In this document: piece after piece, positions 3,178-60,550 of the stretch
How the letters are laid out: each line of letters opens with the position of its first letter
Numbering within the stretch: position 1 is the stretch's first letter
From: Telluribacter humicola
GTDB lineage: Bacteria > Bacteroidota > Bacteroidia > Cytophagales > Spirosomataceae
NCBI RefSeq assembly: GCF_017355935.1
Contig: NZ_JAFIQT010000008.1
Span: 1 to 64,000, forward strand
Reading direction: 5' to 3'
Length of the DNA stretch: 64,000 nucleotides
Made by a program: the position numbers and the translations under genes
Notes under the pieces: model-generated
Seen by the model: only the letters and a program-made list of their open reading frames with translations
Told to the model about the DNA's origin: nothing
Databases searched by the model: none

Positions 3178-3918
3178 ATGCAGGATAACAAGCACAACGA
3201 TTTTATACTGACAAGCAAAAAGAAAAAGATCCTGCTCATAGAAGATGATGCGCATGTATGTTCGTTTGTTAATAAAGGATTAAGTGAAGAAGGCTATGAG
3301 GTAAGCATAGCGATGGATGGAAACGTAGGGCTGCAGATGGCGCTGTCACTGAGCTACGACCTGATCATTCTGGATATTATGCTACCCTCAATCAGTGGTA
3401 TAGATGTGTGTACGTACATCCGGGAACACGACGGTCAGATACCTATCTTATTGCTTTCGGCCCTGGGAAGTACCGAGAATGTCGTGATGGGACTGGACAT
3501 AGGGGCTGATGACTACCTAACCAAGCCCTTCAAATTTATTGAGCTAGTAGCCCGGATCAAGGCGCTGTTGAGACGGAAAGAAAACAAGAAAGCCGAAGAT
3601 ACGGGCCAGGAGGTCATGCATTTTGCGGATCTGGAGCTTAATAACTATACCAAAGAGGTAAGGCGGAATAACCACGAAATATCACTCACCTCTACCGAAT
3701 ACCGCCTCCTGCATATGTTTATGCATAACCCAAGACGGGTACTATCGCGGGTGGAGATACTGGAGGAAGTATGGGGCGTCAATTTTGATATGGGGACCAA
3801 TGTAGTAGATGTATATGTCAATTACCTCCGGAAGAAGCTGGAAAAGGCCGGTGAATCGCGACTTATACATACCGTAATTGGGATGGGCTATGTGATGAAG
3901 GAGAACCACGAAAACTAA
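3178..3918 (+). CDS. OmpR/PhoB-family response regulator
   Basis: The DNA-binding half of a two-component system. Counting from the ATG at 3178 (246 residues), the receiver domain spans about 17-130, with acidic pair D23-D24, phospho-acceptor D66 (IILDIMLP), switch residue S94 and K116 (TKPF). A winged-helix DNA-binding domain occupies about 145-243 (TSTEYRLL...RVLSRVEILEEVWG...VNYLRKKLE). An in-frame TTG at 3139 would lengthen the protein but lies inside the promoter. The kinase gene begins 11 bases downstream. Regulators of this class bind direct repeats with 11-bp spacing, and an array of such repeats lies just beyond the operon at 5342-5429. Confidence 0.95.
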   Translation: MQDNKHNDFILTSKKKKILLIEDDAHVCSFVNKGLSEEGYEVSIAMDGNVGLQMALSLSYDLIILDIMLPSISGIDVCTYIREHDGQIPILLLSALGSTENVVMGLDIGADDYLTKPFKFIELVARIKALLRRKENKKAEDTGQEVMHFADLELNNYTKEVRRNNHEISLTSTEYRLLHMFMHNPRRVLSRVEILEEVWGVNFDMGTNVVDVYVNYLRKKLEKAGESRLIHTVIGMGYVMKENHEN

Positions 3919-3929
3919 GCGGACAACCT

Positions 3930-5309
3930 ATGAAGATCACAACCCGAATCTTACTGCTACTTACAGGAGTCTTCTTATCGCTTATCCTGCTGCTTAGTGG
4001 ATTTATCTACTACGCCTCAGCCAACTACTCGTTTGAAGATTTCTACAAAAGATTAGAGATCAGAGCGGCTACTACGGCCAAGATCTACCTCGAAGACAAT
4101 CAGGATATCAATGCCATCAAAGAGGTGAGGCAGAGTTATCTGGAGCAGCTCCCTAAGGAAGATATCCAGATCATGCTTACCCCATATGGAGATTCGCTGC
4201 GGATCAAGGCGAGTCAGTTGAATGTACCTATAAAGTTTCTTGATGATATCAAGAGGGAAGGAAGCGCCAACTACAGGAAACAAAACCTGTTCTATACCGG
4301 GATCCGGTACAAGCCTTCGGACACGAATAAAGACTACCTGGTCATCGTTTCGGCCGAGAACTACTACTTTACCCATCATATAACGTACCTCCGAAACCTG
4401 TTGATTTCGGCGCTTATCATCTCCCTCGTACTGGTACTGTTAATTTCTTTCTGGATATCCAGGAAGATAGTTCAGCCACTGCAGGACATTACTACCCGCG
4501 TAAAAGACATTAGTTCTGAGAACCTGAATCTCAGGCTTAAGGCGTCCGAAAACGAAGATGAACTGAGTACGCTGACTAAAACATTCAACGACATGCTCGA
4601 CCGTCTGGAAGCCGCTTTTGAGACCCAGAAGAACTTCGTAAGTAATGCTTCTCACGAGCTGAATACCCCGCTGACATCCATCATAGGTGAAGCTGATGTG
4701 ATCCTGTCGAAGCCAAGGCAGCCACACGAGTACCAGGAGGCCATATTGGCTATACTGGAAGAAGCCGAAAAGCTGAACAAGAAAACCCAGGCGCTGCTCT
4801 TCCTGGCCCAGACCGGGTACAATGGGAAGGTACTGAAATTTGATAAAGTACGTATAGATCAGTTGGTACTGGATGTAAAAGAAACCGTGGATAAGATATA
4901 TCCTACCAATAGGGTAATCATCGACTTCAGCTTCCTGCCCGAAAGCCCCGAAAAGCTTAAAGTCAAAGGCAACGAACAGTTGCTGCACCTGGCTCTTTCT
5001 AATGTGATCATGAATGCCTGTAAGTACTCTAATAACGACACCGTGCGGGTATCGCTGGGGGCATCGTCGCAGCAGATTATCATTGTAGTAAAGGACCTGG
5101 GGATAGGTATACCCGAAAATGAAATCAAATACATATATGATCCCTTTTTCAGGGCCAGTAATACCAAACGATTTGAAGGATACGGCATCGGATTACCGAT
5201 CACCCGCAACGTAGTGAAGATGCATGATGGCGAAATAGTAGTGAGCTCGGTTCTTAATCAGGGGGTCACGGTTGAGATCAAACTTCCCGTCGGCAACTAT
5301 AAACTATGA
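3930..5309 (+). CDS. Membrane sensor histidine kinase
   Basis: Partner kinase of the preceding regulator. Order of parts in 459 residues: TM1 about 6-29; a periplasmic sensor of about 120 residues (30-150) with no domain I recognise; TM2 about 154-176; HAMP linker about 176-228; dimerisation/phosphotransfer helix with phospho-acceptor H242 (SNASHELNTPLT); HATPase domain with N box (N362), D389-x-G391-x-G393 and the second glycine-rich box (FEGYGIGLPI, 416-425). All catalytic motifs are intact. The signal sensed is unknown. It is co-transcribed with the regulator (11-bp gap). Confidence 0.95.
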   Translation: MKITTRILLLLTGVFLSLILLLSGFIYYASANYSFEDFYKRLEIRAATTAKIYLEDNQDINAIKEVRQSYLEQLPKEDIQIMLTPYGDSLRIKASQLNVPIKFLDDIKREGSANYRKQNLFYTGIRYKPSDTNKDYLVIVSAENYYFTHHITYLRNLLISALIISLVLVLLISFWISRKIVQPLQDITTRVKDISSENLNLRLKASENEDELSTLTKTFNDMLDRLEAAFETQKNFVSNASHELNTPLTSIIGEADVILSKPRQPHEYQEAILAILEEAEKLNKKTQALLFLAQTGYNGKVLKFDKVRIDQLVLDVKETVDKIYPTNRVIIDFSFLPESPEKLKVKGNEQLLHLALSNVIMNACKYSNNDTVRVSLGASSQQIIIVVKDLGIGIPENEIKYIYDPFFRASNTKRFEGYGIGLPITRNVVKMHDGEIVVSSVLNQGVTVEIKLPVGNYKL

Positions 5310-5341
5310 CTTTATAATGATATTTTACAACGTATAGTTGT

Positions 5342-5429
5342 TTCTAATCCCGCTTTAATCCGGCTCTTAACACATTCTAATTTCGCTCTTACAGCATTCT
5401 AATTCCACTCTTAAGCCGCTCTAATACCT
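5342..5429 (+). promoter_or_regulatory. Eight tandem 11-bp repeats, probable response-regulator operator
   Basis: Eight units of exactly 11 bp run head to tail: 5342, 5353, 5364, 5375, 5386, 5397, 5408 and 5419. Representative units are TTCTAATCCCG, CTTTAATCCGG, CTCTTAACACA, TTCTAATTTCG and CTCTTAAGCCG, giving a core near YTCTWAH. One unit per helical turn puts all cores on one DNA face, as in pho boxes bound by PhoB-family regulators. The last unit ends 6 bases before the -7 element of the universal-stress-like gene, so bound regulator would overlap the -33 region, an activator position. Assignment to the adjacent regulator is inference. Confidence 0.75.
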
Positions 5430-5435
5430 TCGCCA

Positions 5436-5443
5436 TAGCTTTG
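5436..5443 (+). promoter_or_regulatory. -7 promoter element of the universal-stress-like gene
   Basis: TAGCTTTG matches TAnnTTTG exactly, 27 bp before the ATG at 5471. No TTG is seen at the -33 position; the operator array occupies that place, which fits an activator-dependent promoter. Confidence 0.65.
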
Positions 5444-5470: not shown

Positions 5471-5965
5471 ATGGCGAACACTATTCTTATACCTACCGAT
5501 TTTACCATTGAATCACTGAATGTAGTAAAGGGAGCTCTGAGGCAGTTGGATGGTGAAGAAGTTAATCTCATTCTTGTATATTCTGCTCATCTCTCGGACT
5601 GTATTACAGATTTGCTCTTTTTCTCCAAAAAGAAATATCTGGAAGACTTGCAGAATGAAAAGTTTAAGGAAGCCTGTGAGATTCTGCTGAATAAGTACGC
5701 CTCTCAGATCAACTCCTTCTCCATTGATCTGTTTACGGGCAATTACCAGAGTACCTTCCACAACTTCCTGTTGGGCAACAAGGTCGATGCCATATTTATT
5801 CCCAAAAGTTACAAGCTGAAATTAGGGCAAAAGCAAAGCTTTGACTTGCTGCCCTATTGCAGGAAAAGCCCTGTACAGTGTGTGGAGATTGACTGGAACG
5901 AAACCCGCAATGTACCTGAGAAGGACAAGGTAGCAGAGTTGTTTTTTATGCCTAATCCCGTATAA
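5471..5965 (+). CDS. Universal-stress-protein-like protein
   Basis: The 164-residue product begins like UspA domains (ANTILIPTDFTIESLNVV, a first strand ending in a Thr-Asp pair) and ends with a strand of the KSPVQCVEIDW type. The glycine-rich ATP-binding signature (G-x2-G-x9-G-S) is absent, so it probably does not bind ATP in the classical way. No signal peptide. It is the first gene downstream of the eight-repeat operator and of the two-component operon, which marks it as the probable target of that system. Role unknown beyond a stress or adaptation function inferred from family and promoter. Confidence 0.8.
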   Translation: MANTILIPTDFTIESLNVVKGALRQLDGEEVNLILVYSAHLSDCITDLLFFSKKKYLEDLQNEKFKEACEILLNKYASQINSFSIDLFTGNYQSTFHNFLLGNKVDAIFIPKSYKLKLGQKQSFDLLPYCRKSPVQCVEIDWNETRNVPEKDKVAELFFMPNPV

Positions 5966-6005: not shown

Positions 6006-6491
6006 ATGAGAAGCAAGTTAGGTGCATACTATATAGGAATTTTTTTGGCAGCCGTATCAGGTTTTCTGCTTCTCGTTTCCAGTGCTGCCAGCCCGGATCA
6101 GCTACTAGCGGGTACCTGGGAGGAAGTGGCCTGGGAATACGAAAAGGTAGATAAGTCGCGGGGGGCTGATACGCTCTCGAGCAAGGTAATCTCAGAGGAT
6201 GTGAAGCAGATGATCGCTCAGGACCTGATTGTTCACCGAGCGGAGAAGTGGCACTTCTGGCCCAACGGTACCCTGAGCCTCATAGCGGAAGGTGATATAA
6301 ACGACGCTCCTCGTAAGCGACTCAACTGGCGGCTCAAGGGACGGGGACACATACTCCTGCTGCACTATAACGATGAGACAGAAGAGAGCTACAACATAGT
6401 AAAGTTGACTCAGGACGAGCTGACGCTGCACTTCTATACCGAAATGCAAGCACGAGGGATAGCGAAAATAACGTTTAAAAGAGTCAGATAG
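6006..6491 (+). CDS. Secreted protein, lipocalin-like in outline
   Basis: A 161-residue protein from the ATG at 6006 (a TTG three codons earlier is less likely). Residues about 6-30 form a signal peptide (YYIGIFLAAVSGFLLLVSSAA). The mature part starts LLAGTWEE and continues with W/N-rich strands (KWHFWPNGTLSLI, RLNWRLKGRGHILLLHY), a pattern of small lipocalin-like or META-like beta-barrels in Bacteroidota; this is a resemblance only. It lies 40 bp after the stress-like gene and 2 bp before the YoaK-type gene, so the three probably form one transcription unit under the repeat operator. Confidence 0.75.
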   Translation: MRSKLGAYYIGIFLAAVSGFLLLVSSAASPDQLLAGTWEEVAWEYEKVDKSRGADTLSSKVISEDVKQMIAQDLIVHRAEKWHFWPNGTLSLIAEGDINDAPRKRLNWRLKGRGHILLLHYNDETEESYNIVKLTQDELTLHFYTEMQARGIAKITFKRVR

Positions 6492-6493
6492 CC

Positions 6494-7288
6494 ATGCTTA
6501 GAAAATACAGCAATAGCAGAAGCCTGAGAGATAACATCCAGTTAGGAGTACTGACTGCTTTTTCGGCGGGTATGGTAAACGTGGCGTCGCTTATCATATT
6601 TTTTGCATTTACTTCGAACGTAACGGGTCATTACGCCATCCTGGCTGAGGAAATCGCTAAGGGGCACTGGTACCAGGTAGGGGTGGTCTTTGCCTGGATA
6701 CTGCTCTTCTTTATGGGAGCCTTTGTAGCCAATTTTATCATTATCAATCTTAATAAGAAAAATGCCTACGCGGCTCACGCGCTTCCGCTCCTACTGGAAA
6801 TGCTGTGTTTAGTTACGGTAGGAATATACGGGCAGTACTACTACCAGGAGACTCTCACCGAAACCGAAGTACTCGTTGGCCTGATGTTATTCGCAATGGG
6901 TTTGCAGAATGGTATGACCGCCAGTGTTTCAAACTTTGTGGTAAAGACCACCCACCTCACCGGTCTTACTACTGATCTGGGTATCCTGTTCTCCATGTTT
7001 ACTCAGAAGGAGTTCCGGGATAATCCCACGTTGGTAGGACGAGCTAAACTGCTTGTTTCTATTGCGGTGTCGTATGTGAGTGCCGGTGTACTATCAGCTC
7101 TGATCTACCACAGGCTGCAGTTCAGGGTGTTTTTTGTAGTAGCGTGCGTTATTGTAGTTATTATATGCTACGACTACTCTAAGCTACGGTTCCTGCAATT
7201 GATCAAGCGAAGAAATGTAGGCAAGGCACTCGAGGCCAAGATGGAAGCTATCCATCAGGACCAAACGGTCGGGCAGACTTCACATTAA
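6494..7288 (+). CDS. YoaK/DUF1275 family integral membrane protein
   Basis: 264 residues with about six hydrophobic segments and the conserved core of the DUF1275 (YoaK) family: an early GMVNVASLIIFFAFTSNVTGH stretch and GLQNGMTASVSNFVVKTTHLTG near 137-158, followed by a DLG turn. Function is unknown in the family; a transporter-like role is often supposed but not shown. The stop of the preceding secreted-protein gene is only 2 bases away, so the two are very likely cotranslated. A hairpin follows at 7308-7345 before the convergent metallohydrolase gene. Confidence 0.88.
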   Translation: MLRKYSNSRSLRDNIQLGVLTAFSAGMVNVASLIIFFAFTSNVTGHYAILAEEIAKGHWYQVGVVFAWILLFFMGAFVANFIIINLNKKNAYAAHALPLLLEMLCLVTVGIYGQYYYQETLTETEVLVGLMLFAMGLQNGMTASVSNFVVKTTHLTGLTTDLGILFSMFTQKEFRDNPTLVGRAKLLVSIAVSYVSAGVLSALIYHRLQFRVFFVVACVIVVIICYDYSKLRFLQLIKRRNVGKALEAKMEAIHQDQTVGQTSH

Positions 7289-20428: not shown

Positions 20429-20712
20429 GTACTAGTAGAGGTTTTCATACGCAATTTTAATAAAGATCACTTTATACGAACCTTGAACACCAAACAACCT
20501 TGGTTCGTTTTCAGGGGTATCAATTGTTGTACCAAATTAGTGCAATTTAAGAAAATAGTTAAAAAAAGTTTGTAACCATTTTTGACATAGTTGATTATTA
20601 GCCTCTTAGGCTACAAAAAACTTTAGAGGGTCTGTAGGGCTAAGATAGCGGGGGGCATAGGGGAGCACGTATTATTACTATATGATACGTAGGTTTTCGC
20701 TATTGATATTTA

Positions 20713-59732: not shown

Positions 59733-60550
59733 TGAGTAACAACTCCGCGTTTTATAAAGCTTTATTCCAATACGATACGCTGTTCAGGGTAGAGGAGGAT
59801 CTTTCTATGCTGAAAGTACCTTCATTACCTGCTGAGCCTGAAAGAGATTTAACACCTGCTCCCCCAGTGGAAGCTATCAGTGTGGAAGCTCCCGGAGTGG
59901 AAACTCCCGGAGTGGAAACTCCCGGAGTGGAAACTCCCGGAGTGGAAACTCCCGGAGTGGAAGCTCCCGGAGTGGAAACTTCGCAAGTAGCTACTTCCCA
60001 AGCCGAAATGTCCGGAGTGGGAACTCCCAGAGTGGATGCTCCCCGAGTGGAAGTGCCTCAAGTTGTATCTCTTAATGTCGAGGCACCAGTTGAAGCCAAA
60101 GCACCTGCCATGGCACCTCCACAGCCCGTAGCTCCCCCTCCACCGGTGGTGACTGTACCAACTGTACCTTTTCCGGCGCTCAAGCACAAGGTACTTGTTC
60201 TCGTCGATGAGCCTAATCAGCCCGATATGCTGCCTTCGGAGTACATACTGCTATCCAATATCCTGAAAGCCGTAGGACATTCGATCGACGAGGCCGATAT
60301 CGTCAATCTTAGCTATATACCTTCGGCGGATGCCCGTAGCGTGTTTGCCGACAAGCTTACCAACCACTTCATTACGTTTGGGGTGCCGCTGATCAAGCTG
60401 CAGCTTGACCTGCTCCTGCCGCCTTACACCCCCAAACAGGTGGAAGGTATCTGGTTCCTGCTGGCTGATCCGCTAGCCGTCATTGATGCGGATAAAGCCC
60501 TGAAAAAACGTCTCTGGCTCGCCCTTCAGAAAATGTTTGCAGTGAGTTGA
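59732..60550 (+). CDS. Unrecognised protein with pentapeptide-repeat linker
   Basis: 272 residues, start ATG 59732 coupled by TAATG to the cytochrome gene. Residues 1-45 are a short charged N-terminus; about 46-150 are a linker rich in Val, Glu, Pro, Thr and Gly, built on pentapeptides of the V-E-T/A-P-G kind and ending in a Pro-rich run; about 150-272 are a compact alpha/beta domain (KVLVLVDEPNQPDMLPSEYI, WFLLADPLAVIDADKALKKR). The last domain loosely recalls DNA polymerase III psi (HolD)-like folds in its pattern; that is a guess. No signal peptide. Confidence 0.75.
   Translation: MSNNSAFYKALFQYDTLFRVEEDLSMLKVPSLPAEPERDLTPAPPVEAISVEAPGVETPGVETPGVETPGVETPGVEAPGVETSQVATSQAEMSGVGTPRVDAPRVEVPQVVSLNVEAPVEAKAPAMAPPQPVAPPPPVVTVPTVPFPALKHKVLVLVDEPNQPDMLPSEYILLSNILKAVGHSIDEADIVNLSYIPSADARSVFADKLTNHFITFGVPLIKLQLDLLLPPYTPKQVEGIWFLLADPLAVIDADKALKKRLWLALQKMFAVS
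59882..60061 (+). repeat. Twelve 15-bp in-frame repeats
   Basis: Twelve consecutive 15-bp units from 59882 with consensus GTGGAAACTCCCGGA; units 1-6 are identical except for one A/G change, and the rest diverge. Each encodes one pentapeptide V-E-T/A-P-G. Copy number may vary by slippage without changing the frame. Confidence 0.9.

Follow-up and report, generated by a model that had tools for sequence, protein, structure and literature searches.

The pho boxes of Escherichia coli, recognized by the OmpR/PhoB-type regulator PhoB, are among the closest described relatives of the promoter considered here. A PHO box is formed by two 11-nucleotide direct repeats with seven conserved letters (PMC4415409), and the PhoB site precedes the −10 element by 10 bp (PMC1906773). 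Streptomyces PhoP binds complex operators composed of direct repeat units, several 11-nucleotide units occurring at one promoter. The PhoP unit core is GTTCACC (PMC4415409), and at pitH2 four core and two ancillary units are filled in order of PhoP concentration (PMC7866108). PmrA/BasR, with the homologous chain 4s04, is likewise described as recognizing tandem direct repeats. The CzcR/SilR/CopR (CusR) group regulates heavy-metal systems, and CusR sites are inverted. To our knowledge, few operators of two-component systems have been described in Bacteroidota. A search of the open-access literature found no system or site like the one described below, which does not establish its absence from print.

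The Telluribacter humicola locus was found in a stretch of 64,000 nucleotides (contig NZ_JAFIQT010000008.1, positions 1 to 64,000; hereafter the window). An array of eight contiguous 11-bp units in a single register occupies 5342-5429, between a regulator-kinase gene pair and an operon for a universal stress protein (USP)-like, a lipocalin-like and a DUF1275 protein. The units are, in order, TTCTAATCCCG CTTTAATCCGG CTCTTAACACA TTCTAATTTCG CTCTTACAGCA TTCTAATTCCA CTCTTAAGCCG CTCTAATACCT. A sequence-only reading of this DNA had claimed eight contiguous units with a shared YTCTWAH core; the number, contiguity and register were confirmed, beyond chance in shuffles, and the core is present in seven of the eight, unit 2 of the series being CTTTAAT. 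Counted from the promoter, all on the forward strand, units 8 and 7 (5342..5363) are the proposed outermost dimer site, units 6 and 5 (5364..5385) and units 4 and 3 (5386..5407) two further proposed dimer sites, and units 2 and 1 (5408..5429) the proposed promoter-proximal site. The outermost pair departs from the TCTTA/TCTAAT alternation. In the reading favoured here, the OmpR/PhoB-type regulator encoded next to the array would bind it as four dimers in head-to-tail order and activate the USP-like/lipocalin/DUF1275 operon; a probability of about 0.8 is assigned to this reading.

The array exceeds chance and is genuine. When up to three mismatches were allowed, a three-unit pattern was matched at 10 places in the window (six within the array), against 0.87 expected and a largest count of 3 among 100 shuffles. 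In a motif-blind 4×11 test the array scored 0/500 letter shuffles, and TRF reported a 22-bp period with scores of 76 and 57 and, over a shorter stretch, an 11-bp period with a score of 38. The genome scan for the repeat motif that the sequence-only reading had proposed restricted the exact three-unit form to this array (four overlapping matches in the 6.56-Mb genome); with up to two mismatches, 18 matches were obtained (six in the array), versus 6 with the reversed pattern. Just before the array (5327-5341), CGTATAG is present in both the window and the congener. Similarly, a palindromic ACTATACGTATAGT precedes the array in a relative (L097); like CGTATAG, it is possibly a second regulator site.

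Is the array a property of this genome or of the gene behind it? The USP-like protein was searched for in 222 genomes of the family (36 genera), of which 107 had a match at E ≤ 0.001. By hand count, 88 places reached 4.4e-28 or better, the window among them; 60 of the other 87 were taken, and the 27 left out all belong to one genus group (g32). Twelve named loci were added, from Telluribacter, Persicitalea, Arundinibacter, Parapedobacter (three), Cyclobacteriaceae/Cytophagales MAGs (three), Agaribacillus, Fulvivirga and Psychroserpens. The resulting 73 rows, minus five duplicates, gave 68 distinct upstream regions; one genome (G170) carries two copies, of which the second (L121) was counted and the first was outside the count. 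An array was observed at the USP-like gene in 68/68 regions, with four units in 39 rows, six in 22, eight in 4, ten in 2 and three in a single row (L128). The unit number was thus even in 67/68 regions, with L128 as the sole odd state. The loci scored with the unit matrix were also those used to train it; under a separate consensus rule, the longest run in letter-shuffled regions averaged 1.2 units and reached 5 at most. A previous count of units, starting from the −7 element, had yielded 1, 2 or 5 units in eight rows; several of its anchors were wrong, and it was replaced. This distribution of the array supports reading it as a cis element that belongs to the USP-like gene and is conserved with it.

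Outward from the promoter, the consensus is TCTAAT for units 1, 3 and 5 and TCTTA for unit 2, whereas units 4 and 6 are mixed at the fifth letter (A 0.42/T 0.31 and T 0.52, respectively). The likely functional unit is therefore 22 bp, with half-sites that tend to alternate, TCTTA then TCTAAT. Array length also seems to shift in 22-bp steps: the window has eight units and its congener ten, apparently through an internal 22-bp step (judged by eye). Because unit numbers are even and the alternation has a 22-bp period, these patterns suggest that the unit of both function and evolution is one dimer covering 22 bp. The evidence is good but not overwhelming, since the independent changes in unit number are few: at least seven, one of them to three, on a 59-row kinase tree, so that row counts are not independent. 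Such variation in length is also what a slippage-made minisatellite without a regulatory role would produce; yet phase, distance to the −7 element and core letters are kept from one bacterial family to another, unlike the four spacer letters, which differ, and this conservation largely refutes the explanation and leaves it barely credible. Four units are the commonest form. Given this four-unit majority (39/68) and the similar repeats after five paralogous pairs described below, the eight-unit length is, as far as the compared sequences go, a local peculiarity and the principle general.

The array ends 6 bp before a −7 element, as the sequence-only reading had stated and as the coordinates 5429 and 5436 bear out. 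This element, TAGCTTTG (5436-5443, forward strand), presumably of the Bacteroidota type in the −33/−7 nomenclature of Bacteroidota promoters, lies 10 bp after the last seven-letter core. No TTTG −33 element was observed in the window promoter at a spacer of 17-21. Among the relatives, a −7 match was sought 3-24 bp from the array end, which was picked by array score only; the best match lay exactly 10 bp past the last 7-mer in 66/68 distinct upstream regions (59 unique, 7 tied), with L106 and L121 as the exceptions. At least five of the six fixed letters were found at the 10-bp position in 61/68 rows, and all six in 22. TTTG at a spacer of 17-21 was found in 0/66 of the loci with the 10-bp gap, and TTG in 3/66. 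The window therefore presents what is seen at a pho-box-like activator site, namely 11-bp direct repeats about 10 bp from the −7 element in a promoter lacking a −33 element. An array reaching to within 6 bp of the −7 element might instead repress, with dimers blocking polymerase until a signal releases them. However, the missing −33 element is as expected of an activator-dependent promoter, and the 10-bp spacing is the same as that of the E. coli PhoB sites (PMC1906773), so that repression appears improbable.

As far as can be judged from its letters, the layout extends that of a PhoB-like promoter and does not amount to a new mechanism. The core here is YTCTWAH, whereas that of PhoB is CTGTCAT, and eight units stand before a Bacteroidota −7 element; no phosphate gene was seen in the target operon. 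The Streptomyces PhoP operators differ in core, phylum, promoter and target, whereas the arrays described here have 4-10 units, nearly always an even number, near a −7 element. Targets and array length also distinguish the locus from PmrA/BasR. This conserved, unusually long array is of a known general kind, while the details of the layout (even counts, 22-bp steps and the fixed 10 bp) are seemingly new, no description of them having been seen.

The pair directly upstream of the array was correctly recognized in the sequence-only reading as an OmpR/PhoB-type system. The response regulator (3181..3918, forward strand) contains a receiver and a C-terminal winged helix, both above the Pfam cutoffs (Response_reg, 4.4e-27; Trans_reg_C, 8.8e-27), and is the presumed binder of the array; its recognition-helix region, TNVVDVYVNYLRKK, changes little among the orthologs compared. 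The membrane histidine kinase (3930..5309, forward strand) contains HAMP, HisKA and HATPase_c domains. The regulator scored below the curated NCBIfam cutoffs both as a PhoB equivalog (TIGR02154, 211.4 bits vs 296.2) and as CzcR/SilR/CopR (TIGR01387, 232.4 bits vs 279.2), and the best NCBIfam model of the kinase, cztS_silS_copS, gave 239.7 bits, under its cutoff of 292.55. The heavy-metal systems supply the best NCBIfam models for both proteins; however, both scores are under the cutoffs, no metal gene was seen in the target operon, and the repeats here are direct. The predicted structure of the kinase (pLDDT 69.5, pTM 0.40) was too poor for naming the signal that it would relay.

In 55/68 loci the regulator and kinase genes immediately precede the array and the USP-like gene in the same orientation, and in 13/68 they do not; at all of these 13 an array is still found beside the USP-like gene. 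The pair is divergent in L107 and L110, downstream in L108 and convergent downstream in L165, and in L124 the regulator alone was found upstream. For L101, L102, L104, L109, L112 and L166, no pair was detected in the flank covered, which spans about 2.8 kb upstream (6 kb in the case of L166); the genome of L102 (G031) has a regulator match about 6.5 kb upstream. L105 starts near a contig end, where the presence of the pair cannot be judged, and L121 is the second copy mentioned above. Across 59 relatives, a regulator match at E ≤ 1e-70, which may include paralogs, was present in 16/17 of those with the USP-like gene versus 6/42 of those without it; these six relatives carry a close regulator and no USP-like gene. 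Autoregulation through a like array was considered and rejected: among 62 distinct regions 5′ of the regulator gene, 55 had no run above score 12, four had two units and three had more, and these last three proved to be the divergent USP arrays of L107 and L110 and a contig-end artefact (L098). Nor is the window's own regulator gene preceded by such an array. In L106, L121, L165 and L167, two-unit TTCTAAT repeats precede the regulator gene and may serve a single dimer in autoregulation.

Which regulator occupies the array? The five closest regulator paralogs in the genome are 45-49% identical to the window's regulator, and after each of their kinases TCTAA- or TTAA-type 11-bp repeats were seen by eye, 10 bp from a −7-like element (matching only 4 of 6 letters in L199). 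The recognition-helix regions of these close paralogs resemble that of the window regulator, whereas those of four remoter paralogs read (L073 not among them) differ. In the motif-blind 4×11 test, the arrays of the window, L200, L201 and L202 were strong (at most 2/500 shuffles), and those after L198 and L199 were marginal (25 and 33/500); next to five remoter paralogs, the best-scoring gaps reached 33, 37 and 44/500. Because of the marginal L198 and L199 arrays, the alike-scoring remoter gaps and the weak L199 −7-like element, the contrast between close and remoter paralogs is suggestive but not clean. Alike recognition helices and shared T--TAA-type cores (by eye) would allow another OmpR/PhoB paralog to bind the array, or several to share it, and where the covered flank contains no pair, as at several loci, the acting regulator must be encoded somewhere else. 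Nevertheless, the adjacent pair is retained in 55/68 loci and the paralog repeats vary in their letters (CTCTAAG after L202, TTTTAAT after L201), so that binding by the adjacent regulator is preferred and a paralog as the binder is considered unlikely. Three of the five paralogous pairs precede apparent RND efflux operons (by eye), a further resemblance to the heavy-metal systems.

The L200 array (G000:C21:321500-329000, oriented about 2501-2730) has no codirectional gene of at least 80 codons nearby; it faces just a short segment that closes with a terminator-like hairpin and T run and may encode a small RNA or a frame of 20 codons (by eye). In L199 (G000:C21:229400-236500), the repeats and weak −7-like element after 2531 are likewise followed by no codirectional gene of at least 80 codons in the stretch fetched.

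The window site was the only exact match to an array-plus-promoter pattern in the genome. With up to two mismatches, this pattern gave 62 matches versus 48 when reversed, a background near the control, and no further target is claimed. Strict four-unit TCTWA arrays were matched 10 times in 7/198 genomes of the class, with the reversed pattern absent among the matches listed; such strict matching misses many arrays found by synteny. Beyond the window's own three matches, L206 alone has a regulator-like gene directly upstream together with the 10-bp gap; L204, L208, L210 and L211 lack this context, and L205 and L209 have an outward gene and no clear −7 element at 10 bp (all by eye). Other repeats were also noted. 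At G000:C22:254548-254594, on the reverse strand, TCTAA-type repeats lie upstream of a reading frame, presumably for a DUF2147 protein, 10 bp before a weak −7-like sequence. At window positions 20536-20575 (reverse strand), weak 11-bp periodic TTAA repeats upstream of an rpoN-like gene (by eye) are probably due to chance, as no −7 element lies at 10 bp. Finally, a 15-bp tandem repeat of 11.4 copies (GTGGAAACTCCCGGA; 80% matches by TRF) at 59882-60052 is perhaps a coding repeat.

The first gene of the proposed target operon (5471..5965, forward strand) encodes a USP-like protein of 164 residues. No Pfam match was above threshold, Usp itself giving 14.1 bits (E = 0.072) against a gathering threshold of 24; among 14 family members, seven match Pfam Usp at E up to 1, the best at 0.0038. 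The AlphaFold model (mean pLDDT 82.1) had 39 Foldseek matches at E ≤ 0.001, mostly titled universal stress proteins, with FAD synthetases among them; in the best 50 rows the fit was TM (query) 0.35-0.53 with an rmsd of about 5-9. By its modelled fold, and not by the Pfam threshold, the protein thus appears USP-like. The motif G2xG9xG(S/T), presumably the nucleotide motif of the UspA family, was not seen in its sequence. The second gene (6006..6491, forward strand) encodes a lipocalin-like protein (Lipocalin_4, Pfam 6.6e-06), probably exported in view of a hydrophobic N-terminus noted by eye, and the third (6494..7288, forward strand) a DUF1275 (YoaK-type) membrane protein (Pfam 4.1e-30).

The genes after the USP-like gene were compared in 66 rows, L139 and L154 having given no USP reading frame. 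The first codirectional gene within 250 bp encodes a bestrophin in 18, SulP in 17, a lipocalin in 13 and another or no protein in 18; hence one of the three follows in 48/66 loci, and DUF1275 is next after the lipocalin in 12 of 13. Family names were checked on one representative each (L113 bestrophin, 1.1e-60; L101 SulP, 5e-60; the window's DUF1275 and lipocalin-like proteins, as above) and extended by BLAST clusters. Bestrophin and SulP are families known for anion transport. The alternation of the slot between these two families and DUF1275 suggests a possible anion-transport role for DUF1275. No profile similarity was found that would make DUF1275 a distant SulP or bestrophin (hhalign probability 0.1 against each, the profiles being shallow); TCDB places DUF1275 among families sharing a six-helix MFS unit, with function unknown (PMC7778945). 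The sequence-only reading had seen no known joint role for the target genes; the exchange of bestrophin, SulP and lipocalin plus DUF1275 hints at one, an anion-transport slot.

Overall, each phosphorylated dimer would cover one 22-bp pair, typically with YTCTTAN as the upstream and YTCTAAT as the downstream half-site, the outermost pair deviating. The proximal dimer would replace the −33 element at a fixed 10 bp from the −7 element and recruit RNA polymerase, and three further dimers may contribute cooperatively to occupancy, which would give a steeper or stronger promoter. The target would be the USP-like/lipocalin/DUF1275 operon, a form of a Bacteroidota module with bestrophin, SulP or DUF1275 in its membrane slot. 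The earlier proposal of an undescribed signal-response system gains from the recurrence of this neighbourhood in relatives. More tentatively, the locus may represent an undescribed Bacteroidota signalling module in which the kinase-regulator pair, through an array evolving by whole-dimer (22-bp) steps that tune the response of the promoter, drives a USP-like protein and an exchangeable anion-transport slot, DUF1275 being a channel or carrier for an anion (perhaps bicarbonate or chloride) that works with the USP-like protein; this broader proposal is doubtful.

The recurring layout of dimer sites, 10 bp and TAnnTTTG would allow regulator-target pairs to be predicted from sequence. The series of homologous promoters, whose half-sites number 4, 6, 8 and 10, would reveal the effect of added activator dimers and, if the module reading is true, would form a natural titration of activator dimer number. 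The exchange of bestrophin, SulP and DUF1275 would, in turn, provide a testable function for the DUF1275 membrane family.
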